DNA of 54,192 nt from Verrucomicrobiota bacterium (GCA_003152315.1 PLZV01000034.1:1-54192); one strand, 5' to 3'. Shown: positions 2,787-54,101, counted from the stretch's first letter. Notes: generated from the letters alone by a model not told the origin. Made by a program: numbers and translations.

Positions 2787-2816
2787 GCTTGAACTCATCG
2801 GTGACAAACACAGACT

Positions 2817-22987: not shown

Positions 22988-25900
22988 GCCTGCGGTACCT
23001 CGGCGAACAGTTCCACCATTTCGTCGGGTGCCAGAATCCGGCATGACCGGCACAGGCAACCCAATATTCGCGTATCCGCCCCCAACCGATGCACCTGTGG
23101 TTGAAAGGTCGGGCGGACCTGGATTTCCAACGCGCCGCCCACGGCCGGCAGCCGATGCCGCAGTGTGACCGTTTGCCCGCGTTTGATCACGTGCGTTTGG
23201 GGGCGCTCGCGGCCCAACGAGGCAAGGCGGATGGACAAGGTTTCGGATGGCAACCAGTCCGGGGCATACAGAGTCATCTCCAAATAGCGTTGCGCGCTGC
23301 TCGGGTTGTGCGTGACAGTCACACGCTCCCCGGTCCAGCCATCCGAGAACACGCCGTGTAGGGCCGGTGTGAGGTGGTTGCCCTCATTCAATGCGTCCTG
23401 AAGGACATGGAGATAACGCCGTGCCATCCCAGTGGCATCGTCAAAAGCCGTGAGACGATTCCGCCCGCGCTGGATCAATTGCCCCACCAGTTCGGGATCG
23501 GACTCGACTTGCTCGATTGCCTGCACGATTTCCGTCGGCTTGCGCGGATCGAACAGCACCGCCGCGTCACCGACAACCTCCGGCAAGCTGGTCACATTGC
23601 TGCATAACACCGGCTTGTCAACGGCCATTGCCTCCAGCACCGGCATACCGAATCCCTCGAACAGCGATGGGAAAACCATGGCACGGCACGTACGTAGCAG
23701 CACCGCAAACTCTTCGTTGGGGAGGAACTCCGTCAATATCAACTGTCCGTCCAGTCCCATCCGCGCCCCGGCCTCTTGTAGCTCCTCCCGACGTGCACTC
23801 AACCCACCAGTGCACACGAGTTTCAAATCGGATTCTGGATGACGCGCGCGATACATCCCAAATGCCGTCAGCAGCATCTCGTGATTCTTGTGCGGCCAGT
23901 AATTCGCCGGGTATAAAAGAAACCGGCCCGCATGCAAGCCATATCGTGACAACACGTCGGCGTCCTTGACTGTCCGGCTGTCGGCCAACCGATGGAACAG
24001 GCTGATGTGAATGGTCGTGACCTGCGGCGAATCCACCGTTCCGTGTTGCAGGACAGTCCCACGCACATAGTCCGACATGCAAATCACCCGCGTCGCGAAA
24101 CGACATACATTCCGAAATTCCTGATCGCGATGAGCGCGCTCCTTTTGGCTGAACAATTCCGGGTACGCCAGATACTGCAAATCGTGCACGATGGTTACCA
24201 TGGGCACTCGCGGATCGAAAAACCGTGCCGTCGTAAACGGACAAAAAACAATGTCGGGACTCAACTCTCGCAGTAAACTGCGACGGGAGGACGACTTAAA
24301 GCGTTTGCCCAGCCGCGAAAGGCCACCAGGAGGTCGCCGTGATGTTTCGGGAATCCGCGCGTCATCCCCTCCCACGCATACCCGTCGCACATTATGCGAA
24401 TCCAATGACGCCAGATCGGCATGGCCCTTCTCAGAAGTCAGAAGGACCCACTCGCAGGAGGGAGCAAGCTGCGCAAGATGCCGCACCAATTCCATGGCAA
24501 CCAATTTCGCCCCGCCGTTGTCGGCGCCCGGCAGGACCGGCGTCAAGTCCACCACCACTCGCCGCAACGTCTTCTGCGGACCGTCACTGGTGGGACGTGG
24601 CGCGATTGATCCACTCCCGGCAGCCGCCGTGATCGACCGGTCGAGCGAACGCCACAAACCGAGCGCACGCATGACCCGGTAGGTGTGGCTATGGCCCAGC
24701 TGCTGCAACGTGGCTTGCATTGTCCCGGCGTGAGCCTTCGAGTAGCTCATCTCGGCCTGCAATCGCTTGTGCTTGGAATCGGCCTCTTCCAACATCCGTT
24801 GTTGTTTGTTGATTTCCTCGCCGTGTGCGACTCGGTCGGCTTCCGACGACTCCAACCGCTGTTGCAATTCGGTCAGACGCACATGTAAACTGGCCACTTG
24901 CGCACCCTGGGTCTGGATGACGCCCAGCCGGGCTGCCCGATCTCGTTCCGACTCCCCGAGCAACTGTTCCAGTTGTCGGATGTTTTCCAGACGTGCCGCC
25001 CGGTCCGCTTCCGACGTCTCCAACCGCTGTTGCAATTCGGTCAGACGCGCCTGCGCCAGTCCGCGCTCGGTTTCCAAGTTGCCCACCTCGGTCTGCAACC
25101 GGGCCAGGTGATTGGCAGATTCCGCGATGTCGGCGGACATCCGTGTTCGGTCAGCCTCGACGGCGATCAGGTCCTGTCGGGTCTTTTCCAGTTGTCCAAG
25201 GAGATCGAGCTTCTCTTTTGCGAACGCCGATTGCTGGGCCTGCTTCTCGTGCGCGAGTGATTCACTCTTACTCCGCTCTTGCTCCAGTTCGGTCTGCAAC
25301 CCGTTCATTCGGGCAGTTGCCTGCTTGTTCTTCTCGATCAGACGCGATACCTGGTCGTTCAACTCGGCTCGGAGGCTCTCCGTCTGCTGCGCCTGGGCGG
25401 AATACTTCTTCGTCTCCTCGAGCCAGCGATGAACCTCGGCCTCCAATTCTGTAAGCCGTTGACCCTGCTGGTGGATCACTTGCAATCGAGCTGCGCGATC
25501 CGACTCGGACTCCGTATAGCGTGTGCGCAGGTCGCGCACCTGGTCGTCCAAATCGATGAAGGCTTGAACGACCCGCCCGCCCGGCGTCACGGTCAGCGCC
25601 TGCTGAATTTCCTCGGGAGCAAAGACGGGCAGCGGACGGCAGCCGGTAATCAGAAACATGTCGTAGTGGGCGAAGATCGCCGGCTCGAAGACTACGAAAT
25701 CGGCGCCCAGGCGGTGGAACATCTCGCGGATTGATTGTTGGCTGAACAAGTAGAGATGTTGGTCTGGTTTCAATTGCTCCAGAAAGCGATCCGCCAGTAG
25801 GGTCAGTTCCTCCAGCGTTTTGCCGGCGAGATAATGCGGGGTCTGGATCGCCAATAGACCATTCGGCTTGAGCAGCTTCAGGCAGACGCGCATCGTGCCC

Positions 25901-26448
25901 AACGGATCAGGCAGATGTTCGATCACATCCATCATCGCGATAACGTCCAGGCTGCCCGCGCGAATCTTTTGATCTTCGATCGGCCCGACCAGCGTCGGCA
26001 CGTCGAACGTGCGACGGGCGAATTTCGCCAGCCACGGGCTCAGTTCCAATCCCGTGGCATCGAAGCCGGCATCCCGCAGCATGGCAACAAATCCCCCATG
26101 AGCGCTGCCCAACTCAAGCACGCGCGCCGGTGGCAGCTTGTACTTGAGGACGGTGCGCAGCCAGTAGATACAGCGTTCCGGCAGGTCCAGCCGCGCGCGG
26201 GCGCCCAGGTCGGGATATCCGTGTTCTTTCGGTAGACGGGTCAGGTAATAATTCTTTCCGTACAGGTCTTTTTCTTCATCTTGAACGCGCGAAACATCAC
26301 CTTTCGGTGGCCGGCGCAGCACCAGGGTTTCACACTGGGCACAGCGCCGGTAATCGTCAGAAAACGGTTTCAGACCCTCATTCCCGCACCAGCAGGCGGG
26401 GTCATGCTCACGGCGCGATCTGTCCGGTTGCTTGCCTGGGGATTTCAT
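22984..26448 (-). CDS. Methyltransferase / coiled-coil / GT4 fusion protein
   Basis: This 1154-residue protein combines four parts. Residues 19-39 hold a CxC...CxxC cluster (C19, C21, C36, C39), likely a zinc knuckle. A class I SAM methyltransferase follows, with VLELGSAHGGF as motif I at about residue 110 and DVIAMMDVIEHLPDP as motif II/post-I. Residues of about 290-590 form a long coiled coil with repeated LTELQQRLE(T/S)SEADR units. Residues of about 630-1010 are a GT4 domain (FPSLFEGFGMPVLEAMAVDK), and the last 120 form a beta-rich domain. Related methyltransferase-coil proteins such as WbdD cap O-antigen chains and set their length, which fits the adjacent Wzt. Capping is an inference; the methyl acceptor is unknown. 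It overlaps its neighbours by ATGA at both ends. Confidence 0.88.
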   Translation of the reverse strand: MKSPGKQPDRSRREHDPACWCGNEGLKPFSDDYRRCAQCETLVLRRPPKGDVSRVQDEEKDLYGKNYYLTRLPKEHGYPDLGARARLDLPERCIYWLRTVLKYKLPPARVLELGSAHGGFVAMLRDAGFDATGLELSPWLAKFARRTFDVPTLVGPIEDQKIRAGSLDVIAMMDVIEHLPDPLGTMRVCLKLLKPNGLLAIQTPHYLAGKTLEELTLLADRFLEQLKPDQHLYLFSQQSIREMFHRLGADFVVFEPAIFAHYDMFLITGCRPLPVFAPEEIQQALTVTPGGRVVQAFIDLDDQVRDLRTRYTESESDRAARLQVIHQQGQRLTELEAEVHRWLEETKKYSAQAQQTESLRAELNDQVSRLIEKNKQATARMNGLQTELEQERSKSESLAHEKQAQQSAFAKEKLDLLGQLEKTRQDLIAVEADRTRMSADIAESANHLARLQTEVGNLETERGLAQARLTELQQRLETSEADRAARLENIRQLEQLLGESERDRAARLGVIQTQGAQVASLHVRLTELQQRLESSEADRVAHGEEINKQQRMLEEADSKHKRLQAEMSYSKAHAGTMQATLQQLGHSHTYRVMRALGLWRSLDRSITAAAGSGSIAPRPTSDGPQKTLRRVVVDLTPVLPGADNGGAKLVAMELVRHLAQLAPSCEWVLLTSEKGHADLASLDSHNVRRVCVGGDDARIPETSRRPPGGLSRLGKRFKSSSRRSLLRELSPDIVFCPFTTARFFDPRVPMVTIVHDLQYLAYPELFSQKERAHRDQEFRNVCRFATRVICMSDYVRGTVLQHGTVDSPQVTTIHISLFHRLADSRTVKDADVLSRYGLHAGRFLLYPANYWPHKNHEMLLTAFGMYRARHPESDLKLVCTGGLSARREELQEAGARMGLDGQLILTEFLPNEEFAVLLRTCRAMVFPSLFEGFGMPVLEAMAVDKPVLCSNVTSLPEVVGDAAVLFDPRKPTEIVQAIEQVESDPELVGQLIQRGRNRLTAFDDATGMARRYLHVLQDALNEGNHLTPALHGVFSDGWTGERVTVTHNPSSAQRYLEMTLYAPDWLPSETLSIRLASLGRERPQTHVIKRGQTVTLRHRLPAVGGALEIQVRPTFQPQVHRLGADTRILGCLCRSCRILAPDEMVELFAEVPQA
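24841..25048. repeat. Internal direct repeat in coiled-coil coding region
   Basis: A 40-base segment at 24841-24880 recurs at 25009-25048 with one mismatch, 168 bases (56 codons) apart. It encodes the LTELQQRLE(T/S)SEADR unit of the fusion protein. The period is in frame, so the coil could gain or lose 56-residue units by recombination. Confidence 0.75.
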
Positions 26449-27896
26449 TCAGACTTTCGCGCACCCACGGGGTTTTCCACAGTCACCGCGCAAGAACCGG
26501 GAAGATTGGCGACGCCGTGATGCAGTAGTTGCACGGGTTGACCGCGGGAACGAAACGTGACTCCGATAACCCCGACGCGCGCCAGATGACACAGCCGAAT
26601 AATCTTCGGATGCAGATCCGTGTGTATCAAGGAGCCGCGCCGCTCATAGTCGTCTTTCGTTAGCATGGCCAACCCCAACGTAAACACGTATTCGCCAACG
26701 GCCAGTTCCAGCGAAATGTCCTGTCGGAACCGCAAGCGCGCGCCGGCGCTTACCCGCAAGGGTACGTCCGAGCCATACTCCAGCGTATTCTTTCCATGCA
26801 CGATCATGCTCTTGTCATTGAGAATCTCCAATCCGCCGATCGGAACCTCAATGTCGCGCAACAACTCAAACTCGTAGAAGAAGGAGGCGGTCTGGCCTTG
26901 CTCAAAAGCGCGGCAGGTTCGGCCATCGGCGTTGCAGATCGCCACACCCGTGCAGCATGCCCAGCCATTGGAGACCTGGGGAACATGCTCAATATCGAAA
27001 AAAGCTTCCGCAGGCGCCCACGGCAGTTTGTGATTCTCAGATAGTGAGTGTCCGCCGTTCTGGCCTGCCGCAACCGGCTGGGACGGCGCGACGGCAGGCA
27101 GATGAGCCTGTTGTTCCATCAAATAGTACCGCTTGACCGCCTCGGAGGCGTTTCCTTGGAAGGCCACCAATCCCTGGTCGAGCAGGAGCGCGTTATGGCA
27201 GAACTGTTCGACCTCGTTCATCGCGTGCGAGACGAGCAGAATGGACACGCCCCGCTCCCGCATCCGCTCCAGGCGCTGGTAACATTTTTGCCGGAAGAAG
27301 ATATCGCCCACGGCCAGGGCCTCATCGATCAACAGCACCTGGGCGTCCACGGTCGTTGACACCGCGAACGCCAGCCGCACCAGCATGCCGCTGGAGTAGG
27401 TCTTGGTCGGTTGGTCGATGAAGTCACCGATGTCCGCGAAAGCCTCGATCTCGTCAAACTTCGCGTCGGTTTCTTCCTGGCTCATGCCGCGGATGGCGGT
27501 GTTCATGTAGACGTTTTCGCGGCCGGTGAACTCGGGGTTGAACCCGCTGCCCAATTCCAGTAGCGCGGCCACACTGCCCGCGACGGTGACATCGCCTTCC
27601 GTGGGCATCAGTGTTCCCGCGATGATCTGCAGGAGCGTGCTTTTGCCCGAACCATTTCGCCCGATGATGCCAAGGCTCTCGCCGCGGGCCACGGTGAACG
27701 AGATGTTCTTCAACGCGTAAAAGCTCCGGAACGATTGGCGGGAATGCCGACTGCACCAATCGCGTACGCCGGGTGGCAGGAACGGCAACTGCCCGACCTG
27801 GCCCAACATCGGCCCGTGCAGCCGGGCTGAGGGCGACGACCAGATGGCGTACGCTTTGGAGACGTTATCGACCGTGATGACGATATCGGAACTCAC
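26445..27896 (-). CDS. wzt: Polysaccharide ABC exporter ATPase, Wzt-like with C-terminal binding domain
   Basis: The 483-residue product, from a GTG start, has Walker A GRNGSGKS, SGFNPEFTGRENVYMNTAIR (typical of the Wzt/TagH group), signature YSSGMLVRLAFA, Walker B VLLIDEALAVGD and the H-loop LVSHAM. After residue 260 there is a C-terminal beta-sandwich domain of the Wzt type, which in O-antigen exporters recognises the finished, capped chain. That fits the neighbouring methyltransferase fusion, whose start overlaps its stop as ATGA. The permease partner at 27973 is on the opposite strand across a 76-base gap. Substrate is inferred to be an O-antigen-like glycan. Confidence 0.92.
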   Translation of the reverse strand: MSSDIVITVDNVSKAYAIWSSPSARLHGPMLGQVGQLPFLPPGVRDWCSRHSRQSFRSFYALKNISFTVARGESLGIIGRNGSGKSTLLQIIAGTLMPTEGDVTVAGSVAALLELGSGFNPEFTGRENVYMNTAIRGMSQEETDAKFDEIEAFADIGDFIDQPTKTYSSGMLVRLAFAVSTTVDAQVLLIDEALAVGDIFFRQKCYQRLERMRERGVSILLVSHAMNEVEQFCHNALLLDQGLVAFQGNASEAVKRYYLMEQQAHLPAVAPSQPVAAGQNGGHSLSENHKLPWAPAEAFFDIEHVPQVSNGWACCTGVAICNADGRTCRAFEQGQTASFFYEFELLRDIEVPIGGLEILNDKSMIVHGKNTLEYGSDVPLRVSAGARLRFRQDISLELAVGEYVFTLGLAMLTKDDYERRGSLIHTDLHPKIIRLCHLARVGVIGVTFRSRGQPVQLLHHGVANLPGSCAVTVENPVGARKSE

Positions 27897-29190: not shown

Positions 29191-32121
29191 TTACGGTGCG
29201 GCCGACTCTGTGATCGTGAATGTCTTACTGCCAATAATGATCGTACCGGTTAGGGGGATGTTGTTCGTGTTCTCCGCGACTGTGTAACTGACCGTTCCTT
29301 TCCCAACGCCACTGGCGCCATCTGCAATTGTGATGAACGAATCGTTACTGACGGCAGTCCACGCACAGTCGCTCAAGTTGGCGTTGACCTTCACGGTCTT
29401 GGCAGCCAAAGTGCCGAGAAAACCGCACTTGGCAATCTTGGGGCTTATTGACAATTTGCAACCACCGGCAGCCTGGTTGACCGTGAACGTCTGGCCAGCA
29501 ATGGTCATCGTGCCGGTCAGGGGCACGGTGTTGGTATTGCCGGGGACTGTGTAACGAACAGTCCCGTTACCGTTGCTGCTGGCGCCCGCGGTGATCGTAA
29601 TAAACGGGTCGTTACTGACTGCCGTCCAATCGCAGGACATTTCGTGAGATTTCACCCTCAGAGTCCTGAAACCGCCCTTTGCCGGGAGTCTGACACTCGC
29701 TGGGCTCACGGTGAAGATGCAGTTTACGCTGGCAGCCTGGTCGACACTGAACGCCTGCCCCGCAATGGTCATCGCGCCCATGCGCGCGCCGGCGCTGGTG
29801 TTGGTAGCAACCGTGTAGCTGACCGTCCCGCCGCCTGAGCCGCTGGCTCCCGATATAATTACAATCCAATCCGCACTGCTGCTCGCTGTCCAAACGCAGT
29901 CCGTCGCAGCCGTAACGGTTACAATTCCCTCACCGCCGCTCGCGTCGTAGAGCGCGGTTGTCGGCAGAATCGAGGAGGGACATGTGAAATTGGCGACCAG
30001 AGTACTATCACCCGTCGCCGTGAACGTGTAGTTTGACGACGTGCTAACCACCACTCCGCCTTCCGTCCAATTCGCAAAGCTGTAGCCCTCTGCGGGCGCG
30101 GCTGAAACCGTTGCGCTCGACCCGCAAGTCACAGAGCCGCCGCCGCTTGTGATGCCACCTTCCAAAGGTGAACTGTCCGTGTTAATCAGTGGGTCGATAG
30201 CCGGCGGGAAATTGGCCACCAATGTCCTATTGCTAACCGCCGTGAATGTATACTCCGGCGATGTACTCACTTGAACGCCGTTTTCAGTCCAATTGAAGAA
30301 GTTATAGCACGGGCTCGGCGTCGCGGTCACGGTTGCATCCGACCCGCAGTTCACCGTGCCATCGCCACTCGTGCTGCCACCGCCAATTGGAGCAGGACTC
30401 GTCGCTATCGTGTACGCGCACGAAGTGAGGGCGTTGATCAGTCCGTTTGCCTTGGGCGTGCCCCAGCCGGTGCAGAGGTCGTAGCGGGAAACAGCGGGAA
30501 ACCGGGAGGGGCTGAAATGTGTTTCGTTGTTTCCGCTGGTGATGTCATGGAAAGAAGCGGTATACGTCGTCCCGGTGCCGATCACGTAGATAGCGGGGTT
30601 GATAAGGCCGACCGTTGGCTGACCGTTGGCCTCCGCTTGCTGATTGACCAGCGCTATAAGTCCTGCCCAGAGCGGTGCGGCGCAACTGGTGCCTCCGATA
30701 CCGGTAGCCGTGCTTCCGTTGTCGGAGATAACATAGATGCCATCCGCAACCATGGCCACATCGGGAACATTCCGCGAGAATGTCGATCCCTGATTGGGTG
30801 TCATGTTGATTCCCTTTTGCCAAATCGGAATCGGGTAGTTGACACTGATCCCGCCGCCGCTCGCACCATTGGTCTGACTCGGTCCGGTGCCGGGATTCCA
30901 GTTCCACACGGTTTCCGATTGCCAGGGTCCCTTTGGCCCGGTCGTCGTCAAGGTTGTCCCACCAACCAGCGTGATGTACGGGCTGTCTGCTTGCTGTTGG
31001 TCTGGCCAGAGCGAGGTAAACGCTCCATTGTCCCCGGAAGCCTGGAAGAACGACTGACCCTGCGCTGCATATTGTTTATAGATCTGATCAAAAGTCGGGT
31101 CGTCGCCGAGTGTCCAGGAACAACTAATCTGTTTGGCCAAATTATCCGTGGCGATTTGGTTCAAAACGTCATCATTGAATGTTGAATTATTGGGGGCCTC
31201 GTAGATGATAACCTTAGAGAGTCCCGGTGCCATACTGATCGCCATTTCGATATCCAGGGATACTTCCTGCACTTGGTCGGCATTGGCAGTGGGGGTTCCG
31301 TTGAACCCGCCAATCAACACATTCTTCAGTGGGACATGCGGCAACCCGGCTTGGCTCTCGTAGCTGGTGATATCATTTGCGAAGTAGCCATCCAGCTCCA
31401 CCAGACCGACCACTTGCCCGGAGCCGTCGAGCGACACGCCCGGTACGTAGGCCGACCTAAAATCAGATCCCCTGTAGCTACCGGATGGCCCCGAACCGGA
31501 GGCTGGCGTCGCGTTTGCCGCTTTGTTTTCAAGAGCTGCTTGGATGCTCATAGGATGCGGCAAGCTGTAGTTGTTCAAGCCGGTGATGTGCAATATCGGG
31601 ACAGACAAGTCGAGGGACGGTTCGACATCCGCCGCGTAGAATTCGCGGGCTTCCGTCGGGTGTTGATAGGTGTGTAGCGTCACCCGGAAAGTCCTCTCGA
31701 TATTCGCCACGGAGCCGCGTACATCCACCAGGGTGCGATTGGGATGCGTTCCGGTAATGGTGAACCCATTCGCCTTCGCAAACTCGATGACAGTTTGGTA
31801 GTCCTGCTCCGTCGGCCCGAACGTTGCCGTGAATTCATCGGGTGTCAGCCAGTGATGGTACTGGGAGCTTGTTGGTTCATATTGCTGTTGCAACAAATTG
31901 GTGAGTGCGTCTTGGTTGCGCAGCGGTAGTCCGACCACCAAATCCAGATATGTCGAACTCGCAAGCTTTCCGACCGGCTGCAAGCTTAGTTCCGTAATCG
32001 CCCTTACGGTGTGGCCGTTTAAGGCCTGTCTTTCCGCCGCCTGAGCGGGCGCTTTGAATGCGCAAGTGAAGACAGAAAAAACCATCCAGAAGAATAGAAT
32101 TGGTTTCGCTATGGAATTCAT
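29191..32121 (-). CDS. Secreted S53 (sedolisin/kumamolisin-like) serine protease with C-terminal beta domains
   Basis: The start at 32121 gives a Sec signal (MNSIAKPILFFWMVFSVFTC ... APAQA); an earlier ATG at 32148 is possible. Next is a pro-kumamolisin activation domain (SSQYHHWLTPDEFTATFGPT). The catalytic domain has VSLDIEMAISMAPG with the E...D pair, QASGDNG with the oxyanion Asp, and GIGGTSCAAPLWAGL with the Ser. After residue 570 there are two InlB-B-like repeats (FNWTENGVQVSTSPEYTFTA, FANWTEGGVVVSTSSNYTFT) and three BACON-like units (DCVWTASSSADWI, SCDWTAVSNDPFITI, DCAWTAVSNDSFITI). Such tails usually bind glycans or surfaces. It is an extracellular acid protease by family; the Cys in each BACON-like unit is notable. 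Confidence 0.9.
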   Translation of the reverse strand: MNSIAKPILFFWMVFSVFTCAFKAPAQAAERQALNGHTVRAITELSLQPVGKLASSTYLDLVVGLPLRNQDALTNLLQQQYEPTSSQYHHWLTPDEFTATFGPTEQDYQTVIEFAKANGFTITGTHPNRTLVDVRGSVANIERTFRVTLHTYQHPTEAREFYAADVEPSLDLSVPILHITGLNNYSLPHPMSIQAALENKAANATPASGSGPSGSYRGSDFRSAYVPGVSLDGSGQVVGLVELDGYFANDITSYESQAGLPHVPLKNVLIGGFNGTPTANADQVQEVSLDIEMAISMAPGLSKVIIYEAPNNSTFNDDVLNQIATDNLAKQISCSWTLGDDPTFDQIYKQYAAQGQSFFQASGDNGAFTSLWPDQQQADSPYITLVGGTTLTTTGPKGPWQSETVWNWNPGTGPSQTNGASGGGISVNYPIPIWQKGINMTPNQGSTFSRNVPDVAMVADGIYVISDNGSTATGIGGTSCAAPLWAGLIALVNQQAEANGQPTVGLINPAIYVIGTGTTYTASFHDITSGNNETHFSPSRFPAVSRYDLCTGWGTPKANGLINALTSCAYTIATSPAPIGGGSTSGDGTVNCGSDATVTATPSPCYNFFNWTENGVQVSTSPEYTFTAVSNRTLVANFPPAIDPLINTDSSPLEGGITSGGGSVTCGSSATVSAAPAEGYSFANWTEGGVVVSTSSNYTFTATGDSTLVANFTCPSSILPTTALYDASGGEGIVTVTAATDCVWTASSSADWIVIISGASGSGGGTVSYTVATNTSAGARMGAMTIAGQAFSVDQAASVNCIFTVSPASVRLPAKGGFRTLRVKSHEMSCDWTAVSNDPFITITAGASSNGNGTVRYTVPGNTNTVPLTGTMTIAGQTFTVNQAAGGCKLSISPKIAKCGFLGTLAAKTVKVNANLSDCAWTAVSNDSFITIADGASGVGKGTVSYTVAENTNNIPLTGTIIIGSKTFTITESAAP

Positions 32122-32265
32122 ATTCAAACGTTCCGCTAGGGCTGACACAAGCAGGCTCCGTTTAGGGCATCGGATTTCAAGCCCATTCGAGTCACAGCCA
32201 TCTTCGCCTGCAAATTAGCCCGTCACAAGCCGTTCAAGTCAAGCCAGCTTTCGCGGCTCAGGGGC

Positions 32266-44319: not shown

Positions 44320-45010
44320 TCACGCGCAGTACAGCCCGGGCGACGCGCTCGGGCGGTGGGGCGGCGACCATGTTGCGGACTTGCGTATCCCAGGCTGCTT
44401 TCAGGCGGCGCTGGTCCTCGGTGCTCGCGGCGGCAGTCGCTTGTTTCGTCCGTTCGTGAAACAGTGTCTGGATATCGCCGGGCCGCAACTCCACGACGTG
44501 AATCGACGTATTGGACAACTCCACCCGCAGTCCCTGTGTGAACGAGCTGAGCGCGGATTTCGCCGCGCTGTAGGGTGCCATGAACGGAATTGGGAATTGC
44601 GCGGCCAGCGAAGTGACGTTGAGGATCACACCACGGTCGCGTTCCCGCATTTTCGGGAGTGCCAGGCGGATCAACTCCAGCGGCGCGTCGACCAGCACCT
44701 GAAACTGTTCGCGCACCATTTCCGCCGGCATCGTTTCCAGTGGGCCAAACGCGCCATCGCCAGCATTGTTGATCAGCGCCTCGAACGCGCCGGCCTCCCT
44801 CAGGGCCTCGGCAAAACCCTCGCGGATCGAGTCGAAGCTGGTCAGGTCCATGCGCACCGGGTGGAAGCCCGGTACTTGCGGAAGGCGCAAAATATCGCGG
44901 GATGTTCCCCAAACTTCACAGCCGTGTTGGGTGAGAAGTCTGGCCGTTTCCAGCCCGATGCCGGAACTGGCGCCGGTAAGGAAAATCTTCCTGGGTTCGC
45001 TAGCAGCCAT
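44189..45010 (-). CDS. Short-chain dehydrogenase/reductase
   Basis: The ATG at 45010 gives a 273-residue protein that opens RKIFLTGASSGIGLETARLL, with the nucleotide-binding T-G-x3-G-x-G. NNAGDGAFGP and the catalytic S...YSAAKSALSSFTQGL (Y-x3-K) follow. A hydrophobic/basic C-terminus (LLPLRLLEWALRRYYRL) could sit at the membrane. With the SPT-like enzyme nearby it might act as a 3-ketosphinganine reductase, or with the ketosynthase as a 3-ketoacyl-ACP reductase; both are inferences from context. The start overlaps the ketosynthase end by 11 bases; longer frames to 45190 are overlap. Confidence 0.85.
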   Translation of the reverse strand: MAASEPRKIFLTGASSGIGLETARLLTQHGCEVWGTSRDILRLPQVPGFHPVRMDLTSFDSIREGFAEALREAGAFEALINNAGDGAFGPLETMPAEMVREQFQVLVDAPLELIRLALPKMRERDRGVILNVTSLAAQFPIPFMAPYSAAKSALSSFTQGLRVELSNTSIHVVELRPGDIQTLFHERTKQATAAASTEDQRRLKAAWDTQVRNMVAAPPPERVARAVLRVITVSNPPPVLVVGGFFQARVTPLGARLLPLRLLEWALRRYYRL

Positions 45011-46268
45011 TTTCCCAGCGGCGCACCGCGAGGCAGACGTTGGTGCCGCCGAAGCCACTCGAATTGTTAAGCGCCACACGCGGCGCGTTGGCGATCGGTT
45101 TCGTGACAATGGGCACGATGGCGCATTCGGGATCGAGTTGGGTGATGTGCGCGGAAACCGGTGTAAACTTTTCCTGCACCGCGAGGACACAAAAAGCGGC
45201 TTCCATCGCTCCGGCCAGCGACAAGCCGTGGCCCGTGAGACTTTTCGTGCTACTCACCGGCGGGGTCTTACCGTTACCGAACACCGCGCGGATCGCGCGA
45301 CACTCGCTGACATCACCCGCGGGCGTGGAGGTGGCGTGGGCGTTGATGTAATCGACTTCATCATTCGACAGGCTCGCGTCTTGCAACGCTGCTTCCATGG
45401 CGCGCCGCAAGCCATCGCCATTGGGGTCGGGTGCGATGACGTTGTATCCGTCGGAGGCCTGTCCCCACCCGAGCACCTCGGCAGCGATGGGCGCGCCGCG
45501 TTGTTGCGCGTGCTCCAGTTCTTCCAATACGAGAACAGCGGCACCGCCCGTACCGACAAATCCGTCGCGTTTCATGTCAAAGGCGCACGGTGTTTTTTGG
45601 GGATCGGTCTGCAGGCTCAGGGCGCGAATGCCGGCGAACGGAAGAATATTGAACTTGTTGCAATCCTCGGCGCCGACTACGAAGACCACCTCCTGGCGGT
45701 TGAGGCGAATCAGGTCGCACGCGGCGCCGAGCGCGTGGGCGGAGGACGAGCAGGCACTGGAAAAGCCGGCAGAGCCGCCTTTGATTTTGAAGGTGGTGAC
45801 GAGATTGATGTAGAGCGAGCCGGGGATGCTGTTGATGATCCCCATCGGCTGGCAGCGGGCGACGCCGCGGGTGAGCATGGTATGCAGGTTGTCATACGCG
45901 AGCCACATCGACCCACCCGAAGCACACATGACGCCGGCGCGCGGGTTTGAGACCAGGTCGGGAGTCAGCTTTGCCTCAGCGATCGCCTGTTGCATGGCGC
46001 AGTAGGCGTAGAGTGAGTTCGGCGCCATCGGCCGCAACTGTTCGCGCGTGAGTTTGCACTCGGGCGGATAGCTCCAGTCCTCAAAGTACGACGTGGGGAA
46101 TTGGAAACCTTTGACGGTGCCGACCAGTTTCACGGGTATGTCGGAAGTGGCAAAGTCGGGAAACGGTTCGACACCAGTGCGACATTCCTGAAGACTACGC
46201 AGCACCTGCTTGCGATTGTTGCCGATGCTGGTGATGAACCCCAGGCCCGTGACGACGACACGCTTCAT
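45000..46268 (-). CDS. Beta-ketoacyl-ACP synthase (FabF/KAS II-like)
   Basis: The 422-residue product has the full thiolase-fold triad: Cys in SAGFSSACSSSAHALG, His in NAHATSTPAGDVSE and His in STKSLTGHGLSLAGAMEAAF. The N-terminus is KRVVVTGLGFITSIGNNRKQ and the C-terminus ALNNSSGFGGTNVCLAVRRW, as usual for KAS II. It condenses malonyl-ACP with acyl-ACP. It lies 23 bases after the ACP-dehydratase fusion and overlaps the SDR, so three core fatty-acid-synthesis activities are in one operon apart from the housekeeping fab genes, pointing to a dedicated lipid or polyketide-like chain. Confidence 0.92.
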   Translation of the reverse strand: MKRVVVTGLGFITSIGNNRKQVLRSLQECRTGVEPFPDFATSDIPVKLVGTVKGFQFPTSYFEDWSYPPECKLTREQLRPMAPNSLYAYCAMQQAIAEAKLTPDLVSNPRAGVMCASGGSMWLAYDNLHTMLTRGVARCQPMGIINSIPGSLYINLVTTFKIKGGSAGFSSACSSSAHALGAACDLIRLNRQEVVFVVGAEDCNKFNILPFAGIRALSLQTDPQKTPCAFDMKRDGFVGTGGAAVLVLEELEHAQQRGAPIAAEVLGWGQASDGYNVIAPDPNGDGLRRAMEAALQDASLSNDEVDYINAHATSTPAGDVSECRAIRAVFGNGKTPPVSSTKSLTGHGLSLAGAMEAAFCVLAVQEKFTPVSAHITQLDPECAIVPIVTKPIANAPRVALNNSSGFGGTNVCLAVRRWENGC

Positions 46269-46291
46269 TGGCGGATTGGATTGATGCGGAA

Positions 46292-47218
46292 TCAGGGCTG
46301 ACCGTTTTCCGAGCCGTTGGGCGCGACAGGCACCGCAAGAGTCACAGGAGCTTCCGACTCGGGCGCAGTTGTCGGCGCGGTGCTCCCGGGCAGCAACTGC
46401 TCGCCGAACGCGAGCACGAGACGCTCGACCTTGGCGACACGCTCGCCGTTGGAGGTCACCGTTCCCTCAAAAATAGCCAGCGGCTCACGCAGTTTCGTCA
46501 GCTTCTGCTCGAACTCCAGTTTTTCCCCGGGCCTGGCCTTGCGGTAAAAATGCGCGCCATCAAGCGACGCGAAGAAGACGTGATTCGACTTGATCTCTTT
46601 GCCGAGCTGGGCGGCCCCGCTTTCCAACACCCAAAGGCACGCGGCCTGACCCATCGCCTCGAAAACGATCGACGCCGGGAAAATCGGTTCATCCTTGAAA
46701 TGGCCTTCGAGGAAAAACTCGCTGCCTTTGATCGTGTAACCCGCCCTTACACTGTCTCCATTGAGCAGGGCTTCGTCGAGGAACAGGAATGGTGGCTGCT
46801 GCGGCAGTACGAGCGCAATTTGCTCGCGGGTATAGCGCTTGGCGGGCGCTTCGATTGTGGCTCCCGTGATCTTGTCGTGGAGGAACTTGTTGAGTTGGCC
46901 AAGGGTGCGGATTTCACGGAGTTCCTCATTCTCGATACGCAGTTTGAGGACTTCCTCGATGGAAAGGACGATTTCGAGCAGGGTCAGTGAGTCCAGCCCG
47001 ATGTCTTCGATGAGACGCGTGTTTTCATTCGCCTCCGACAGTTTCACCGCTGCTGTCGCGGGTTGGTAGCGGTCGAGAATCCCGAAGACGATCGTCGGAA
47101 TCGCGTCGAGATCACCGCTTTCGCGGTAGCGGATAGCGGCTTCTATTGTTTCCGGGCTGCACCGCCGCAGTCCTTCCTTCAGGTCAGCCACATCAGTTTC
47201 AGTCAAAGTCACGCTCAT
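46292..47218 (-). CDS. Acyl carrier protein / FabZ-like dehydratase fusion
   Basis: This 308-residue protein joins two domains. At about residues 40-115 is an acyl carrier domain: RLIEDIGLDSLTLLEIVLSI, where D-S-L is the phosphopantetheine site. At about residues 130-275 is a hot-dog dehydratase: PPFLFLDEALLNGDSVRAGY, then FFLEGHFKDEPIFPASIVFE and AMGQAACLWVL, with the His of G-H-F and the Glu of F-E-A-M-G-Q at the FabZ/FabA catalytic positions. FARKARPGEK-like VFFASLDGAHFYRKARPGEK matches the substrate-gating part. A low-complexity Pro/Ala/Thr tail ends it. Carrier and dehydratase are normally separate genes in fatty acid synthesis. First gene of the KAS and SDR operon. Confidence 0.85.
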   Translation of the reverse strand: MSVTLTETDVADLKEGLRRCSPETIEAAIRYRESGDLDAIPTIVFGILDRYQPATAAVKLSEANENTRLIEDIGLDSLTLLEIVLSIEEVLKLRIENEELREIRTLGQLNKFLHDKITGATIEAPAKRYTREQIALVLPQQPPFLFLDEALLNGDSVRAGYTIKGSEFFLEGHFKDEPIFPASIVFEAMGQAACLWVLESGAAQLGKEIKSNHVFFASLDGAHFYRKARPGEKLEFEQKLTKLREPLAIFEGTVTSNGERVAKVERLVLAFGEQLLPGSTAPTTAPESEAPVTLAVPVAPNGSENGQP

Positions 47219-48603: not shown

Positions 48604-50250
48604 ATGCAAGTCTTCGGAGCGAAGCGAGTCGTGAACGACAGCATCAAGCGTTGGGGAATTGGCGCACTGGCGGCAGCCGTATTCACGTTCATCGGCTGGA
48701 AGGCCGCTGTGCTCTACGAACGCCGCGGAGACCGCCTGCCAACCGCACAGGCGCACAAGCAGCAAACGACGCCAAAGCGGGACATCTACAACCCGAAAGC
48801 GGTATACGTTCCCACGGCGGACATCTCCGCCAATCCATTATTCTCTGATTACATACCGACATCGGCCAGTTCCAAACCAGTTGAAGACGATGGGATCCGT
48901 TTGGTCTCCGGCTTTGAGGGTTCTCCTGCCGCAAAGATCACGAAGGACACTGATGGGCATTGGGTCATTGAGCAAGAAGATCCAACGTGGAAGAAGCCGC
49001 ATTTCTTCCTGTTTCGGATTGAAGGAGCAAACGGCCATGATGTAACAATTGAGCTTCGCAACGTGCCCGACAGATGGTCCACCATCAATCCCGTTTACTC
49101 CTACACGAGAAGTTTGGATGATTTGGCCGCGTTCGCCTTAACTCTTCCAACCAACGCCGTTGCGCTCCACAAGGCGCAGAATGGCGCGGACTTACCCGAT
49201 ACGAGCGGCCAAAGTTGGCATTTCATCGAAGACACAAAGGCGTTCAATGGAAGTTTCTGGTTTCGGCAAAAGCTTGACCACGACGCCCACGTTTGCATGC
49301 GCTACCCATATACGCCAAGCTACAATGAGCGTTATCTCGACAGCCTCACCAATGAGTCTTCGGTGTCAGTTATCACGGTCGGCTCCTCCAAAGAAGGTCG
49401 GCCGCTTCGTGTTGTGAAGATCGGGGAAGGCACTGAGGCGGGTGAACAGCGAAAGCCGTGCGTATTGATTTATGCCCGCGAGCACGCTGACGAACAGGAT
49501 TCAAGTTGGGCGGCGCAAGGCGCCATTGAGTTTCTGGTCTCGGATACGACCGAAGCCCGACAAATAAGGAAGCAGTGCACGTTTCTAGTGATTCCACTGC
49601 TCGATCCTGACGGTGCGGCTGCCCCTGTTTACGAACATATTACAGACAGTTTCGGAGAGGGATACACGACGATTGAGTCGATTGCGTACAGCGCAACTTT
49701 TAAAGCTTGGGTAGACAGAGGCAAGCCACTGCAGCTAGTTCTAAACTTACACAATCTCGAAAGCCAAGAAGGGCCGCATGTATCTAATCCGAGGATCGAG
49801 TCGGACGCGAAGAGGATAAAGTATAGTCAGGCGTTCTATAATGAATTTGTGGTGCCGCCAATAAAAGCTATCGACTTCAGGGTTGGAGCTCCGACTGAAT
49901 CAAAAGGGCCGAGTCCGGGACGATTGGGTGATTGGCTTCGCGTCACGTATGGAACTCTTCATCTGCCGATAGAACTGAACTCGCAGGAGCGGCACAGACA
50001 CATGACAATTTCGGACTTACATCAAGTGGGCAAACTGTTGGTACTGTCTTGTACGCAATACCTGAATTCCGAAGAGGCCGCTCCCTTGCTGGCTGGAATA
50101 GAGCAAGTGCGCAACGAGCGTGCCGCACGATGGAAGAAATATGCTGAAGTCATCGTCGCAAAGAGTGCAATCGAGGCGGAGCGGAATTGCCAGTGGAAGG
50201 AACAGTCTGATCGTCTTTATTCTGAATGGGGCGGCAGGCCACCGAAATGA
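48604..50250 (+). CDS. Membrane-anchored M14-like zinc metallocarboxypeptidase
   Basis: From ATG 48604 (AGGGG 4 bases upstream; a TTG at 48574 would add ten residues) the protein has 548 residues. It has an N-terminal signal anchor (WGIGALAAAVFTFIGWKAAV) and a beta-rich domain at about 90-240. The M14 domain has VLIYAREHADEQDSSWAAQG with the zinc motif H294-x-x-E297, LLDPDGAA, LNLHNLESQEGP with H383 and LPIELNS with the likely catalytic Glu457. M14 enzymes remove C-terminal residues or cut other amide bonds. The arrangement resembles cytosolic-carboxypeptidase-like M14 proteins with an N-terminal beta domain. It lies about 80 bases before the Cys-rich protein gene and could take part in its maturation. 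Confidence 0.82.
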   Translation: MQVFGAKRVVNDSIKRWGIGALAAAVFTFIGWKAAVLYERRGDRLPTAQAHKQQTTPKRDIYNPKAVYVPTADISANPLFSDYIPTSASSKPVEDDGIRLVSGFEGSPAAKITKDTDGHWVIEQEDPTWKKPHFFLFRIEGANGHDVTIELRNVPDRWSTINPVYSYTRSLDDLAAFALTLPTNAVALHKAQNGADLPDTSGQSWHFIEDTKAFNGSFWFRQKLDHDAHVCMRYPYTPSYNERYLDSLTNESSVSVITVGSSKEGRPLRVVKIGEGTEAGEQRKPCVLIYAREHADEQDSSWAAQGAIEFLVSDTTEARQIRKQCTFLVIPLLDPDGAAAPVYEHITDSFGEGYTTIESIAYSATFKAWVDRGKPLQLVLNLHNLESQEGPHVSNPRIESDAKRIKYSQAFYNEFVVPPIKAIDFRVGAPTESKGPSPGRLGDWLRVTYGTLHLPIELNSQERHRHMTISDLHQVGKLLVLSCTQYLNSEEAAPLLAGIEQVRNERAARWKKYAEVIVAKSAIEAERNCQWKEQSDRLYSEWGGRPPK

Positions 50251-50316: not shown

Positions 50317-50321
50317 GGAGG
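50317..50321 (+). promoter_or_regulatory. Strong ribosome binding site of Cys-rich protein gene
   Basis: GGAGG lies 8 bases before ATG 50330 and is the best Shine-Dalgarno match in the window. It decides the start: the same frame is open back to 50120, inside the metallopeptidase gene, but only the 50330 start has this box and a signal peptide. Confidence 0.8.
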
Positions 50322-50329
50322 ACGCGAAA

Positions 50330-50836
50330 ATGAAGAGAGTCAGTAAGATGAAGTTAGGCGGGCTCGCCGCAGCTTTGGCACTGCTGGGCTCGCAGTCCGT
50401 TGCCTTGGCAATGTCATCGGCATCAGATGCGGAACTTGGAAGCATCAAAGGGATGTACGCACAGGTCAAAAAGTGCTGTAAATTTGGTGGGGGCTCTCAA
50501 TGCATGTACGCCGGTCCGCCAATGGAGGGCTGTGGTGTTGGCGGTATAAGTTGCGCCGTGGGTAACCAGTGCTTTAAGGTGATGGACGGCCCGTCGGACG
50601 ATGATGTTTGCTGCAACTTAGACGATAAGGACGCCGCCTGCGGCATTAGCTCTAACGGAATTTGCATAAAGTACCACCCGGGCCTGTGTAGCGAATGGGT
50701 GGCCAATGCCATGGTTAACTGTGCTTGCGATGCGACGCTGGTTTCGGCTTCGAACGTTAATGGTATAGGCCGCAAGTACTGTGGAGGATGGAGCTCGTGT
50801 CCTTGGTACTGGTGGTTCAGCAGTTATTGTCCGTAG
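50330..50836 (+). CDS. Secreted cysteine-rich protein with double-glycine-like processing motif
   Basis: A 168-residue protein. Residues 7-27 are a Sec signal (KLGGLAAALALLGSQSVALA) with a likely signal peptidase site at A27. Directly after it, residues 31-42 read ASDAELGSIKGM, matching the double-glycine leader consensus (L-S-x-x-E-L-x-x-I-x-G-G) at S, E, L, I and the first G; the last G is Met. The remaining chain has 16 Cys (CC at 49-50 and again near 90) and a Trp/Tyr-rich end (CPWYWWFSSYCP). I know no named family. The exported C39-like peptidase two genes downstream is the natural candidate to cut after the motif. The mature form would be a disulphide- or modification-rich peptide of about 125 residues. 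Confidence 0.75.
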   Translation: MKRVSKMKLGGLAAALALLGSQSVALAMSSASDAELGSIKGMYAQVKKCCKFGGGSQCMYAGPPMEGCGVGGISCAVGNQCFKVMDGPSDDDVCCNLDDKDAACGISSNGICIKYHPGLCSEWVANAMVNCACDATLVSASNVNGIGRKYCGGWSSCPWYWWFSSYCP

Positions 50837-50858
50837 GCTGAAGGCACGTGAGGATTCG

Positions 50859-52016
50859 ATGCGTCCCTTGTCTACATATCTCGTCTTGCTCGCCATTCTA
50901 CATGCATTAATCCACTCAGGATTTGCGCAATCAGAGTTGCTGGAGCAACTGCGCGTTAAAGTCTCCGAAACCGAGATGAGGGTAACTAATCTGCGGGTTG
51001 ATGGTACGTCTCAGCACGATTCTTGGGATGCCACGGCTAAGGCATGGAAGTACTCGGGGGAGTCCGAAGCGACAGCTTGGTATGGTGGGCTGCCCGGAAG
51101 CAAGGCGCGCGTAGACTACCACAGGGATGTATCGACCACAGTTGGTGGCCCCGCGCCATTCTACGAAGAAAGTTTCACCGTCGCTTACAACGGCCGTATT
51201 AACCAGAAGCTATACAAGAGTGAAGGTCCGCCAGATCAACAACATGAGGTCGGACGTGGGGTACTGGATTCAAAACGAGACGACGAGATTGTGACAGGGG
51301 GTTTTGCAAGCGGATGGAATTATTCCATATATGGGTGCCTAGATAACCGGGGGATGCGCCTTTCAAACGTGTTTGATTCGAAAGACTTCGTTGTGCAGGC
51401 GAAAGAAAAGTCTTACAGCGGCGTGAACTGCATCCAATTGACAGCGACCGCGCGTCGAGAGCCAATAGAGCGTACTTGGTATTTAGATCCCACGCGTGGA
51501 TATGCAATACTTGGCTGTGAACTCGCATTTGTTAAGACGAACCGGGTGGTTTTTTCGCGGATCACCGTCCAGAAATTGTTAGAGCCGTCACCGGGTATCT
51601 ACTATCCCGGCAAGGTTCTTGAAGAAGTGACGAATCCGGATGGCACCCCAAGTAGCCGTTCAACATACGAAGCTTCAACGGTTATTGTGAATGATCCAAC
51701 CTTTGCCGAGGATGTGTTTAACATCGAGTGGCCTAAAGGCACGCTGGTGTACGACAGAATTAACGACAAGAAGTTCATCGTCGAGGGTGACACAAATACC
51801 ATAATGCAGAGTATAGATCATCAAGTTGAGCAAGTTCGATCGCAGATTGCAGATCAACGCACGCTTGTTCAAGCTCAGACCGAACAAACCGCAACGAAGA
51901 CTATTCCGGTAGCCCGCAGGGCTTGGCCGTGCCCCCAAAAGCGGCTGATCGTCGTCGTGATTCTCCTTGCTGTCATACTGGCGGCAGGTGTGGCGGTGAG
52001 TCTACGACGAAAATGA
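50859..52016 (+). CDS. Secreted beta-rich protein with C-terminal membrane tail
   Basis: From ATG 50859 (TGAGGA 4 bases upstream) the product has 385 residues. It starts with a signal peptide (YLVLLAILHALIHSGFAQSE). The body is beta-rich (DGTSQHDSWDATAKAWKYSG, FYEESFTVAYNGRINQKLYK, ERTWYLDPTRGYAILGCELA) and resembles LolA-like or outer-membrane-lipoprotein-sorting-like proteins of Planctomycetes and Verrucomicrobia. A coiled stretch follows, then a C-terminal hydrophobic helix with a basic end (LIVVVILLAVILAAGVAVSL, RRK), which would anchor it in the membrane or act as a sorting tail. It lies between the Cys-rich protein and the C39-like peptidase, whose ATG overlaps its stop as ATGA. Function unknown. 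Confidence 0.78.
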   Translation: MRPLSTYLVLLAILHALIHSGFAQSELLEQLRVKVSETEMRVTNLRVDGTSQHDSWDATAKAWKYSGESEATAWYGGLPGSKARVDYHRDVSTTVGGPAPFYEESFTVAYNGRINQKLYKSEGPPDQQHEVGRGVLDSKRDDEIVTGGFASGWNYSIYGCLDNRGMRLSNVFDSKDFVVQAKEKSYSGVNCIQLTATARREPIERTWYLDPTRGYAILGCELAFVKTNRVVFSRITVQKLLEPSPGIYYPGKVLEEVTNPDGTPSSRSTYEASTVIVNDPTFAEDVFNIEWPKGTLVYDRINDKKFIVEGDTNTIMQSIDHQVEQVRSQIADQRTLVQAQTEQTATKTIPVARRAWPCPQKRLIVVVILLAVILAAGVAVSLRRK

Positions 52017-53221
52017 AGACTGCGACCTTGGTGCTTGTCGGCATATGCGCGATTGCTCTGGGAGGTCGACTTCTTGGCGAAGAAGACTCACCTGTCCTGC
52101 GCGAATTGGGAGATGCCAAATTGGAGAACTGCGGCGTGGATGTTACGCTATTCCTGTTGGGCTGGTTCAATGTCCCGGTCGGGTTGGAGCGGCTGCAAAA
52201 CGAACTGGGGGTGGGGCCGCACTGGGCAAAAGCGACCTCTCTTGCTCAGATCAAGAGTGCGCTTGAGCGCCGTGGATTGAAAGTTGACGCCTACAAGGAC
52301 GCACGAGTGGATGAAGTACTTCCCCGGATCGACGGGAAACAGGTCTGCGTGTTGCACGTGCAGCGAGACGATTCTCCGGTGGGACATTTTTATCTTGTAG
52401 TTGCACGCAGACTTACTGAAGTGTTCTTGGTGGATGCTGGCACCCGTCAGGATTGGGTTCCGATTCAAGAGTTCAATGAGAAGCTTGGAAAGTCGTTTAC
52501 CGGGTATTGCCTGTTTATCTCGCAAGCCAATCCGAATCCTCAACCAGAGCATACGCTCGACGAGAAGATCATCGAAGTGGATGTGGGGACAATCACAAAC
52601 TCACCGGGCATCCTACTCGTAACAATTCCAGTAGTGAATACGAAGCAAGTGCCGATTGTCGTCGAGAAAGCTTCGGGGTCTTGTGGTTGTTTCAACGGAG
52701 CGGGGTTCAGGGGGGAGCGCCCGACACGCCTGGAGCCGGGTGAGAAGCAAGTGCTCGAACTGCGGTTCGACCGGGCGTCGATAGGAGTCGGCGATGTCCG
52801 GCGCGCCGCCACCCTAAGTGTCAAAGACACAGAGGCAAGGGAAGTGCAGATCAAGATCACTGCCCACGTCTTCCAGCTGCCGGTCGAGCAGCGCGTCACG
52901 TGGTTTCCCCAGAAGATCGACTACGGGTTGGTCAAGGATACCGGCACTTTGCTACGGCCGCAGGATGTGGCGATTTGGTTGCCGCCGGGGGTGATGTTAG
53001 GCAGTATAACGCCAAGTTCTTCTAACGTCCTGGCCAAAGTTTTGGACAAACAGGAGAACGTTGAAGGCGATGACCAAGTCCCGCGGCGGGCCTACCGATT
53101 GGAGGTCTCGATCACGGCCACGCGAAATGGACCGTTCAACGAAAAGGTCTCCATCACGACAAGCGATACCAATTATCCCTTGGTAGAGATTCCACTGGTT
53201 GGCGAAGTTACGCATCAATAG
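52013..53221 (+). CDS. Exported C39-like cysteine peptidase fused to DUF1573
   Basis: The start at 52013 overlaps the upstream stop (ATGA) and gives a signal peptide (TATLVLVGICAIALGGRLLG) in a 402-residue protein; the earlier frame from 51923 is overlap. Residues of about 30-170 are papain-like of the C39 type: Cys40 in LENCGVDVTLFLLGWFNVP, His125 in SPVGHFYLVV and Asp141 in FLVDAG. The oxyanion Gln normally six residues before Cys is Asp34 here. The rest contains a DUF1573 domain (EKASGSCGCFNGAGF, TRLEPGEKQVLELRFD) followed by a further beta domain. C39 peptidases cut double-glycine leaders, usually as cytosolic domains of ABC exporters; this one is exported and free. Its likely substrate is the Cys-rich protein at 50330. 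Confidence 0.82.
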   Translation: MKTATLVLVGICAIALGGRLLGEEDSPVLRELGDAKLENCGVDVTLFLLGWFNVPVGLERLQNELGVGPHWAKATSLAQIKSALERRGLKVDAYKDARVDEVLPRIDGKQVCVLHVQRDDSPVGHFYLVVARRLTEVFLVDAGTRQDWVPIQEFNEKLGKSFTGYCLFISQANPNPQPEHTLDEKIIEVDVGTITNSPGILLVTIPVVNTKQVPIVVEKASGSCGCFNGAGFRGERPTRLEPGEKQVLELRFDRASIGVGDVRRAATLSVKDTEAREVQIKITAHVFQLPVEQRVTWFPQKIDYGLVKDTGTLLRPQDVAIWLPPGVMLGSITPSSSNVLAKVLDKQENVEGDDQVPRRAYRLEVSITATRNGPFNEKVSITTSDTNYPLVEIPLVGEVTHQ

Positions 53222-53240: not shown

Positions 53241-54101
53241 ATGAGAGATCCAGTTTGGAGCGTTCTGTTGATACTGTCTCCAGCGATATTCTGTGGCAGT
53301 TGGCCAGCATCGGCACAGTCACAGCCTCAAACGGCCAAGGAACCGACGGTTCGCCAGCGGATAGAGAGCAAAGACTCAAATCAGGTGACAGAAGCAGTTG
53401 AGACCATTTGGGAGCGACTCCATTCCTCCAATCCTCAAGATGTGAAGAATGCTGCCAATGGGTTGGACGCGAATCATTGGTTGGATGATTTGATCGCCGC
53501 CGGGCATTATGAAGATGCTGAGAGGTTGGCGCTCGACGCGATTCGAACGTTGCCTTCGGACACGCGTTTAGTTGAAGCGCTACAGGGTTATCGGATGCGG
53601 GCGCTGTTGGGAATGGGCAAGACGAACGACGCGTTGGGCGCGGCGAAGGGGTTGTTCAACGTATGCCGGCTGCAAAGCACGGCCAATGTATTGGCACGCG
53701 TTATCGAATGCCTCAAGGCGACACATCCGGGCGACGATGCGTTGATCGACAGGTTTCGCGCGGAACAAATGGCGGGGGCAAAGGCTGAGGCTGTCGGTTC
53801 TCCGTGGTCAGCAGTCAGAAGTCAGTCTTCGGTTCTGGGAAGCATCAAGGTGGACGGCTCGCCGTATGAGAAGGGTATTGAGGAGCGCAAAACCAACGGC
53901 TATTGGAGTTTGAAAGGAACGGGCAATTTGCTGCTGCTTGCCGACAAACCGGAGCAAGCGAAGCCGTTTTTTGAAAAGGCGTACAAACTTGCTCCGACGA
54001 ATGTCTTGGCAGAAGCGACGGAAAGCATCGCGCGTTGTATGAAAGCCGAGGACGGCACGGTGGGACGGGCCAATGCATGGGTGCTGTCAAACCGGCCGTA
54101 A
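53241..54101 (+). CDS. Exported TPR-like repeat protein
   Basis: The ATG at 53241 has GGAGGG about 8 bases upstream and gives a 286-residue protein with a signal peptide (WSVLLILSPAIFCGSWPASA). Helical hairpins of TPR type follow: LIAAGHYEDAERLALDAIRT, LLGMGKTNDALGAAKGLFNV and LLLADKPEQAKPFFEKAYKL. TPR proteins mediate protein contacts. It starts 19 bases after the C39-DUF1573 gene, so it is probably the last gene of that operon. It may scaffold the other exported proteins; no specific role can be read from the sequence. Confidence 0.78.
   Translation: MRDPVWSVLLILSPAIFCGSWPASAQSQPQTAKEPTVRQRIESKDSNQVTEAVETIWERLHSSNPQDVKNAANGLDANHWLDDLIAAGHYEDAERLALDAIRTLPSDTRLVEALQGYRMRALLGMGKTNDALGAAKGLFNVCRLQSTANVLARVIECLKATHPGDDALIDRFRAEQMAGAKAEAVGSPWSAVRSQSSVLGSIKVDGSPYEKGIEERKTNGYWSLKGTGNLLLLADKPEQAKPFFEKAYKLAPTNVLAEATESIARCMKAEDGTVGRANAWVLSNRP

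Follow-up and report, generated by a model that had tools for sequence, protein, structure and literature searches.

Whether a double-glycine leader can be read outside the cytoplasm, by an exported C39 protease acting on a protein that has itself left through Sec, is the question raised by an operon near the end of a 54,192-nucleotide contig of a Verrucomicrobiota bacterium (GCA_003152315.1, PLZV01000034.1), referred to here as the window. The coordinates of its features are given in Table 1. A preliminary description of this DNA had reported a small protein with a Sec signal, then the motif ASDAELGSIKGM, then 16 cysteines; a signal-bearing C39 peptidase (Cys40, His125, Asp141) fused to DUF1573 two genes past the small gene; an M14 protein just upstream; and a membrane-tailed beta protein and a TPR-like protein in the same run. 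All of these components are present as described, the C39-DUF1573 assignment being confirmed by PF03412, PF07610 and alignment.

Table 1. Features of the operon in the window, and of small proteins in loci with an inactive C39 domain (prefixed with the locus).
Feature	Coordinates	Strand	Evidence
M14-family carboxypeptidase-like protein, N-terminal TM/signal anchor; start codon uncertain	48604..50250	+	PF00246, 5.9e-17
Shine-Dalgarno GGAGG of the small gene	50317..50321	+	sequence
Small Sec-exported Cys-rich protein, proposed C39 substrate	50330..50836	+	168 aa, 16 Cys; homologue in L007
Signal peptide, residues 1-27, predicted cut VALA/MSS	50330..50410	+	n-, h- and c-region read by eye
Double-glycine-like recognition motif ASDAELGSIKGM, residues 31-42, predicted cut after Met42	50420..50455	+	consensus fit, matrix score, kept in L007
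Partner protein: N-terminal signal, beta-rich domain, C-terminal TM helix	50859..52016	+	no Pfam family
Exported C39 peptidase + DUF1573 protein, 402 aa	52013..53221	+	PF03412 2.6e-8, PF07610 1.5e-8; N-terminal signal/anchor
C39 peptidase domain	52124..52528	+	Pfam coordinates; family profile matches LahT and ComA protease structures
DUF1573 (Ig-like) domain	52574..52870	+	Pfam
Exported TPR-like protein	53241..54101	+	TPR families
AQ[VIL]xxxNPxPxxE-like small proteins	L027:3725-4174, L027:6325-6771, L027:9178-9702, L030:198-674, L037:3906-4367, L037:8623-9111		

The N-terminus of the small protein reads as a normal Sec signal, with a K/R-rich n-region (MKRVSKMK) followed by an h-region and the VALA/MSS site, all identified in the sequence by eye. 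When compared with the published double-glycine leader consensus, LSX2ELX2IXGG (PMC3897388), ASDAELGSIKGM matches at S-11, E-8, L-7, I-4 and G-2 and deviates at -12 (Ala) and -1 (Met). The fit at five key positions originally claimed stands, but the site is Gly-Met and not Gly-Gly, Gly-Ala or Gly-Ser. An independent leader matrix gave the window site a score of 9.0, and shuffling the region behind the signal of this protein put its p value at 0.0035. Tyr43 would then be the first residue of the mature protein. The protein matched no Pfam, NCBIfam or convincing PADLOC family. A Cas10h match (0.0036) was discarded as chance, and an AlphaFold model built from a two-sequence alignment (pLDDT 45) was too poor for use.

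The C39 domain of the window scores 34.2 bits against PF03412, compared with a curated cut-off of 22 bits, and the PF07610 match is likewise above its cut-off. Its Cys-His-Asp triad is kept in the nearest relative, L007, and aligns to the C, H and D of the LahT and ComA structures. A profile of Cys-positive C39 domains matches 6mpz (the AMS/PCAT double-glycine protease domain of LahT) at 3.3e-6, with Cys, His and Asp aligned, and also matches the ComA structures 5xe8 and 3k8u. All three residues are invariant in the aligned Cys-positive domains (11 of 11), and selection had been on Cys only. The classical Gln about six residues ahead of the Cys is Asp in the window and varied in relatives, and so is not conserved; in LahT this Gln lies 4.3 Å from the relevant oxygen, and its catalytic role has been questioned (PMC6363468). 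As for leader recognition, LahT150 requires hydrophobic residues at -4, -7 and -12 (PMC10885120), positions that are mostly hydrophobic or Ala in the motifs of the present family.

The arrangement is operon-like, since the C39 gene overlaps the stop of the partner gene by ATGA and the M14, partner and TPR genes are co-directional with short gaps. The TPR-like gene probably belongs to the same transcript; its homologues stand beside the C39 gene in L024 and within the same loci in L025 and L033. The M14 protein matches M14 carboxypeptidases in the PDB (7.5e-11), carries the first zinc-ligand motif HxxE as HADE, and has a C-terminus that recurs in L007, again ahead of the small gene. The partner protein is fused directly to C39 in L031, L068-L071 and L114. 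Its weak PDB matches were uninformative, and "LolA-like" or "LOL" is a working label only.

Topology suggests that the C39 domain is on the outer side of the membrane. According to a hydrophobicity scan, the window's partner protein has a TM helix near its C-terminus with a basic tail behind it, and its C39 protein starts with a signal or anchor. Fused relatives (L068, L069, L070, L071 and L114) have two TM segments with a loop between them containing 3-6 K/R but no more than one acidic residue; following a signal-bearing partner domain, this pattern would place the partner domain and C39 both outside. The N-terminus of the small protein could otherwise be read as one long double-glycine leader, its hydrophobic stretch not being a Sec signal, with cytosolic handling by a C39-ABC transporter encoded elsewhere. 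Although such transporters are the usual proteases for double-glycine leaders (PMC6363468), a PF03412 search of the window's genome gave no C39-ABC transporter, the local C39 proteins bear their own signals or anchors, and in the small proteins of the family the motif comes after a K/R n-region, an h-region and a c-region of small residues. We regard cytosolic handling as highly improbable. The only other C39 protein that PF03412 found in this genome is a signal-bearing C39 + TPR protein of 343 aa with no ABC domain (L140:946-1977, minus strand, contig C16).

Direct searches using the window small protein as query gave no convincing relative; because its Cys-rich body diverges too fast, the C39 protein was taken as bait instead. 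A scan of genome contigs with the C39 protein yielded one relative, L007, a 5.2-kb contig from a Phycisphaerales MAG (Planctomycetota) with the gene order M14 end, Cys-rich small gene, partner gene and C39-DUF1573. Its identity to the window is 51% for C39-DUF1573, 38% for the partner and 29% for the full-length small protein, and its motif, ASDQDLQNVRGM, is identical to that of the window at 6 of 12 positions despite the divergence of the remaining small protein. Further loci were obtained by profile searches in genomes of the class and phylum of L007, after which wider flanks were read. Profiles containing DUF1573 were swamped by unrelated DUF1573 proteins, and a C39-only profile was used instead; ABC-fused C39 loci (L120, L124, L133, L136) were excluded. 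The result was a set of 33 C39 loci that have no ABC fusion and retain the catalytic Cys, namely the window, L007 and others from the phylum of L007. An exported Cys-rich small protein upstream was scored in 27 of the 33, most with a double-glycine pattern just past the signal, the usual order being a small exported Cys-rich gene just upstream of the partner and C39 genes; the remaining six (L115, L117, L121, L130, L131, L138) had no scored small protein. A relative of the window small protein was recognized in L031 (2e-9). The preliminary description had proposed looking for the same neighbourhood in other PVC genomes and asking whether the motif is kept after a Sec-type signal: the neighbourhood was found in L007 and many Planctomycetota loci, and the motif is kept, with the full double-glycine consensus in many relatives.

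The post-signal motifs include IADAELATIRGA (L070), LSDVEMSSTRAG (L034), VSDDEAAKLVGG (L122), VSAAELDSLAAG (L123), VLATELAAIQGG (L126), LSAQEMASLRGA (L134), LADSTLARVVGT (L137) and LTIDELNQSRGG (L139). Several relatives have textbook GG, GA or GS sites, such as VLATELAAIQGG and LTIDELNQSRGG, and full GG or GA is found at the site in L070, L122, L126, L134 and L139. As descriptive counts over 25 hand-aligned loci, the commonest residues at -12, -11 and -10 are A/L/V, S and D, while E/D occurs at -8 in 18, L/M at -7 in 19, V/I/L at -4 in 19 and G/A at -2 in all 25; G occupies -1 in 10, the remainder being mostly L, A, M, Q, T and S. The resulting family consensus is [ALV]-S-D-x-[ED]-[LM]-x-x-[VIL]-x-G-[G/A/L/M].

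The motif was scored with a 12-position matrix whose sole source was a set of ten classical leaders of bacteriocins, pheromones and lanthipeptides, including no sequence of the present study; the best position within 38 residues past the hydrophobic core was set against shuffled versions of those residues. Over the 27 intact-Cys loci, which are phylogenetically non-independent and whose small proteins and start codons were chosen partly by judgement, the summed score was 88.4 versus -61.6 ± 16.0 for shuffles (z = 9.4, Fisher p = 6e-14), with individual p < 0.05 in 13 of the 27. L118 was included after its motif had been seen, and L138, with a 16-Cys ORF of poor score, was omitted. Scores were weak in L024, L025, L069, L125, L127, L129, L132 and L135. 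The post-signal region also outscores distal windows of the same proteins (Mann-Whitney p = 1e-7), as well as 209 further ORFs from these loci that bear a signal (p = 1.5e-9). These results bear on the possibility that the C39-DUF1573 protein serves another envelope substrate and that the motif is incidental in the N-terminus of a structural Cys-rich protein. C39 domains do have other uses, and four of the exported C39 loci (L117, L121, L130, L131) gave no such small protein; nevertheless, an enrichment far above shuffles and background ORFs, together with recurrence of the motif in both halves of the C39 tree, makes an incidental motif quite improbable in our judgement.

Some members of the family carry additional features. 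In L126, one protein (5595-7214, plus strand) combines C39 with DUF1559 (SBP_bac_10) and a prepilin-type N-methylation segment, and upstream of it is a small protein with a textbook signal and VLATELAAIQGG. Close to its Sec-type Cys-rich gene, L024 also encodes a 17-Cys protein (2286-2852, plus strand) whose signal is of the Tat-like RR kind (SRRAFLSRLARG). MauE-family (PF07291) proteins are encoded beside the operons at L068:6570-7427 (minus strand) and L027:12312-13376 (plus strand). This family is tied to the redox maturation of a Cys-rich subunit; its presence there fits disulfide formation and suggests dedicated disulfide or redox maturation.

The catalytic Cys is replaced by Ser, Thr, Asn or another residue in L027, L028, L029, L030, L032 and L037. 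In the five of these six whose small protein could be read, the motif gives no signal (z = 0.4). Genomes G720 and G661 each combine an active version (L024 and L026, respectively) with an inactive one (L037 and L027). In a tree of 39 C39 domains two changes suffice for the loss of Cys; since this amounts to one or two evolutionary events, the pairing of Cys loss with motif loss is suggestive and not statistical proof, and in that suggestive sense the joint loss fits a C39 domain acting on the motif. The preliminary description had counted a commonly missing catalytic Cys against its own reading; the Cys is indeed missing in one cluster of loci, but the motif is absent exactly there, as the reading would have it.

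The same loci are relevant to a second role for the motif, as a docking element only, with C39, the partner or both holding or escorting the exported protein uncut and signal peptidase making the sole N-terminal cut. Cys-less C39-like domains tether substrates in some ABC systems (cited in PMC5557850), and a cluster of the present loci has lost the Cys. The residue at -1 also counts against cleavage: it is Met in the window and L007 and Leu or Gln in other close relatives, which is unusual for a cleaved site, as known C39 substrates carry Gly, Ala or Ser there. However, a docking role would keep the motif where the Cys is lost, whereas the Cys-lost loci have lost both, and C, H and D are all kept in the Cys-positive set. 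Docking without cleavage appears unlikely to us.

The inactive-C39 loci have their own characteristics. A different shared post-signal stretch, approximately AQ[VIL]xxxNPxPxxE, replaces the double-glycine motif in several of their Cys-rich small proteins, and three such genes are clustered in L027. Upstream of the Cys-rich genes lie beta-propeller-like proteins (L028:1-1923, plus strand, with a Reg_prop match; L027:3-2153, plus strand), encoded at or near the position that M14 occupies in the window, L007, L025 and L033.

Given this evidence, we consider it likely that Sec export comes first and that C39 cleavage at the double-glycine site follows outside the cytoplasm, maturing a disulfide-rich secreted protein. 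The sequences support the export of both proteins, the motif, the intact triad, the genetic linkage and the recurrence; the cut itself, the exact bond and the roles of the partner and M14 are what we infer. The small precursor would cross the cytoplasmic membrane via Sec and lose its signal peptide after Ala27, leaving a 15-residue propeptide that holds the recognition motif. The exported, membrane-anchored C39 would bind this motif through hydrophobic or small residues at -12, -7 and -4 and an acidic residue at -8, and would cut after Gly41-Met42 outside the cytoplasm, thus freeing the Cys-rich body. Since many relatives have partner and C39 in one protein, the partner's task is probably to hold the substrate at the membrane or present it there, and the M14 peptidase may trim the C-terminus. 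The earlier proposal that substrate and protease both pass through Sec, with maturation outside the cytoplasm, gains support from recurrence and motif conservation, cleavage at the motif being its putative step. Our guess is that the product works outside the cell, as a peptide directed at other cells or at the cell surface; a sequence that diverges but spares its cysteines would suit a secreted effector or surface protein.

The closest precedent is FapD of the Pseudomonas Fap amyloid secretion system, a Sec-exported periplasmic C39 whose C38A mutant stops amyloid secretion and whose target is unclear, the Fap proteins being said to have no canonical C39 sequences (PMC5557850). This periplasmic precedent contradicts the statement in the preliminary description that known C39 processing is cytosolic. 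Like FapD, which is required for the export of Sec-exported partners, the present enzyme is an exported C39 with a signal or anchor, as judged here by hydrophobicity and the topology of fused relatives. Unlike the case of FapD, with its unclear substrate, the adjacent small protein here carries the motif right past its signal, C39 is accompanied by DUF1573 and a partner protein, the neighbours are M14, the partner and TPR, and neither a FapF-like porin nor amyloid repeats were noticed. The system shares with PCAT/AMS proteins (ComA, LahT, PCAT1) the C39 fold, the Cys-His-Asp triad and a recognition pattern like L(-12), E(-8), L(-7), I/V(-4), G-G; it differs in having no ABC domain, an exported protease, a Sec signal ahead of the motif in the substrate, no conserved Gln ahead of the Cys and a relaxed -1 residue. 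Class II bacteriocin and lanthipeptide precursors have a short LSxxELxxIxGG leader directly before a small, often Cys-rich product; the putative leader here resembles it, but would be the second of two N-terminal signals, and at about 50-130 aa the Cys-rich product would be larger. Ax21 is a known case of confusion between Sec and double-glycine claims (PMC3897388). Among open-licence papers, we found nothing relevant on planctomycete C39/double-glycine systems. What seems to be new is the link between an exported C39 and an adjacent putative substrate in which a recognisable double-glycine leader comes after a Sec signal, together with the recurrence of this pair across a phylum.

The C39-DUF1573 protein was absent from other genomes of the window's class (286 searched) and phylum (388 searched), and the C39-only profile found none in 113 genomes of the class. 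GC content is 54% in the last 6 kb of the contig versus 56-62% over most of the remainder; the first 3 kb is also low, at 52%. The simplest reading is that the operon was probably acquired horizontally from a planctomycete-like donor, although the contig may instead be chimeric. Elsewhere in the window, a methyltransferase-glycosyltransferase fusion adjoins a Wzt-type ABC ATPase (22984-26448 and 26445-27896, both minus strand), forming a polysaccharide export cluster. A ketoacyl-synthase-like gene, recognized from its translation, adjoins an acyl-carrier + FabA-like dehydratase fusion and resembles a polyene/fatty-acid-type cluster (45000-47218, minus strand), and a large secreted protein combines a pro-kumamolisin activation domain with InlB-like and BACON domains (29191-32148, minus strand).

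On balance, we lean towards the view that Planctomycetota contain an extensive, undescribed class of secreted peptides with two signals, Sec first and a double-glycine leader second, the latter being read once export is complete by a dedicated C39 anchored in the membrane. Leader recognition would then be uncoupled from ABC transport, and the operon would have passed into at least one genome outside that phylum, that of the window. Genome mining pairs double-glycine leaders with C39-ABC transporters. Should such a leader prove to function behind a Sec signal too, mining has probably overlooked a class of Cys-rich peptides that Planctomycetota secrete, which could be found by pairing an exported C39 with a small protein in which a signal precedes a GG motif. 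That would also help to explain what periplasmic C39 enzymes such as FapD recognise, and the loci would supply testable substrate-protease pairs, some with textbook GG sites.
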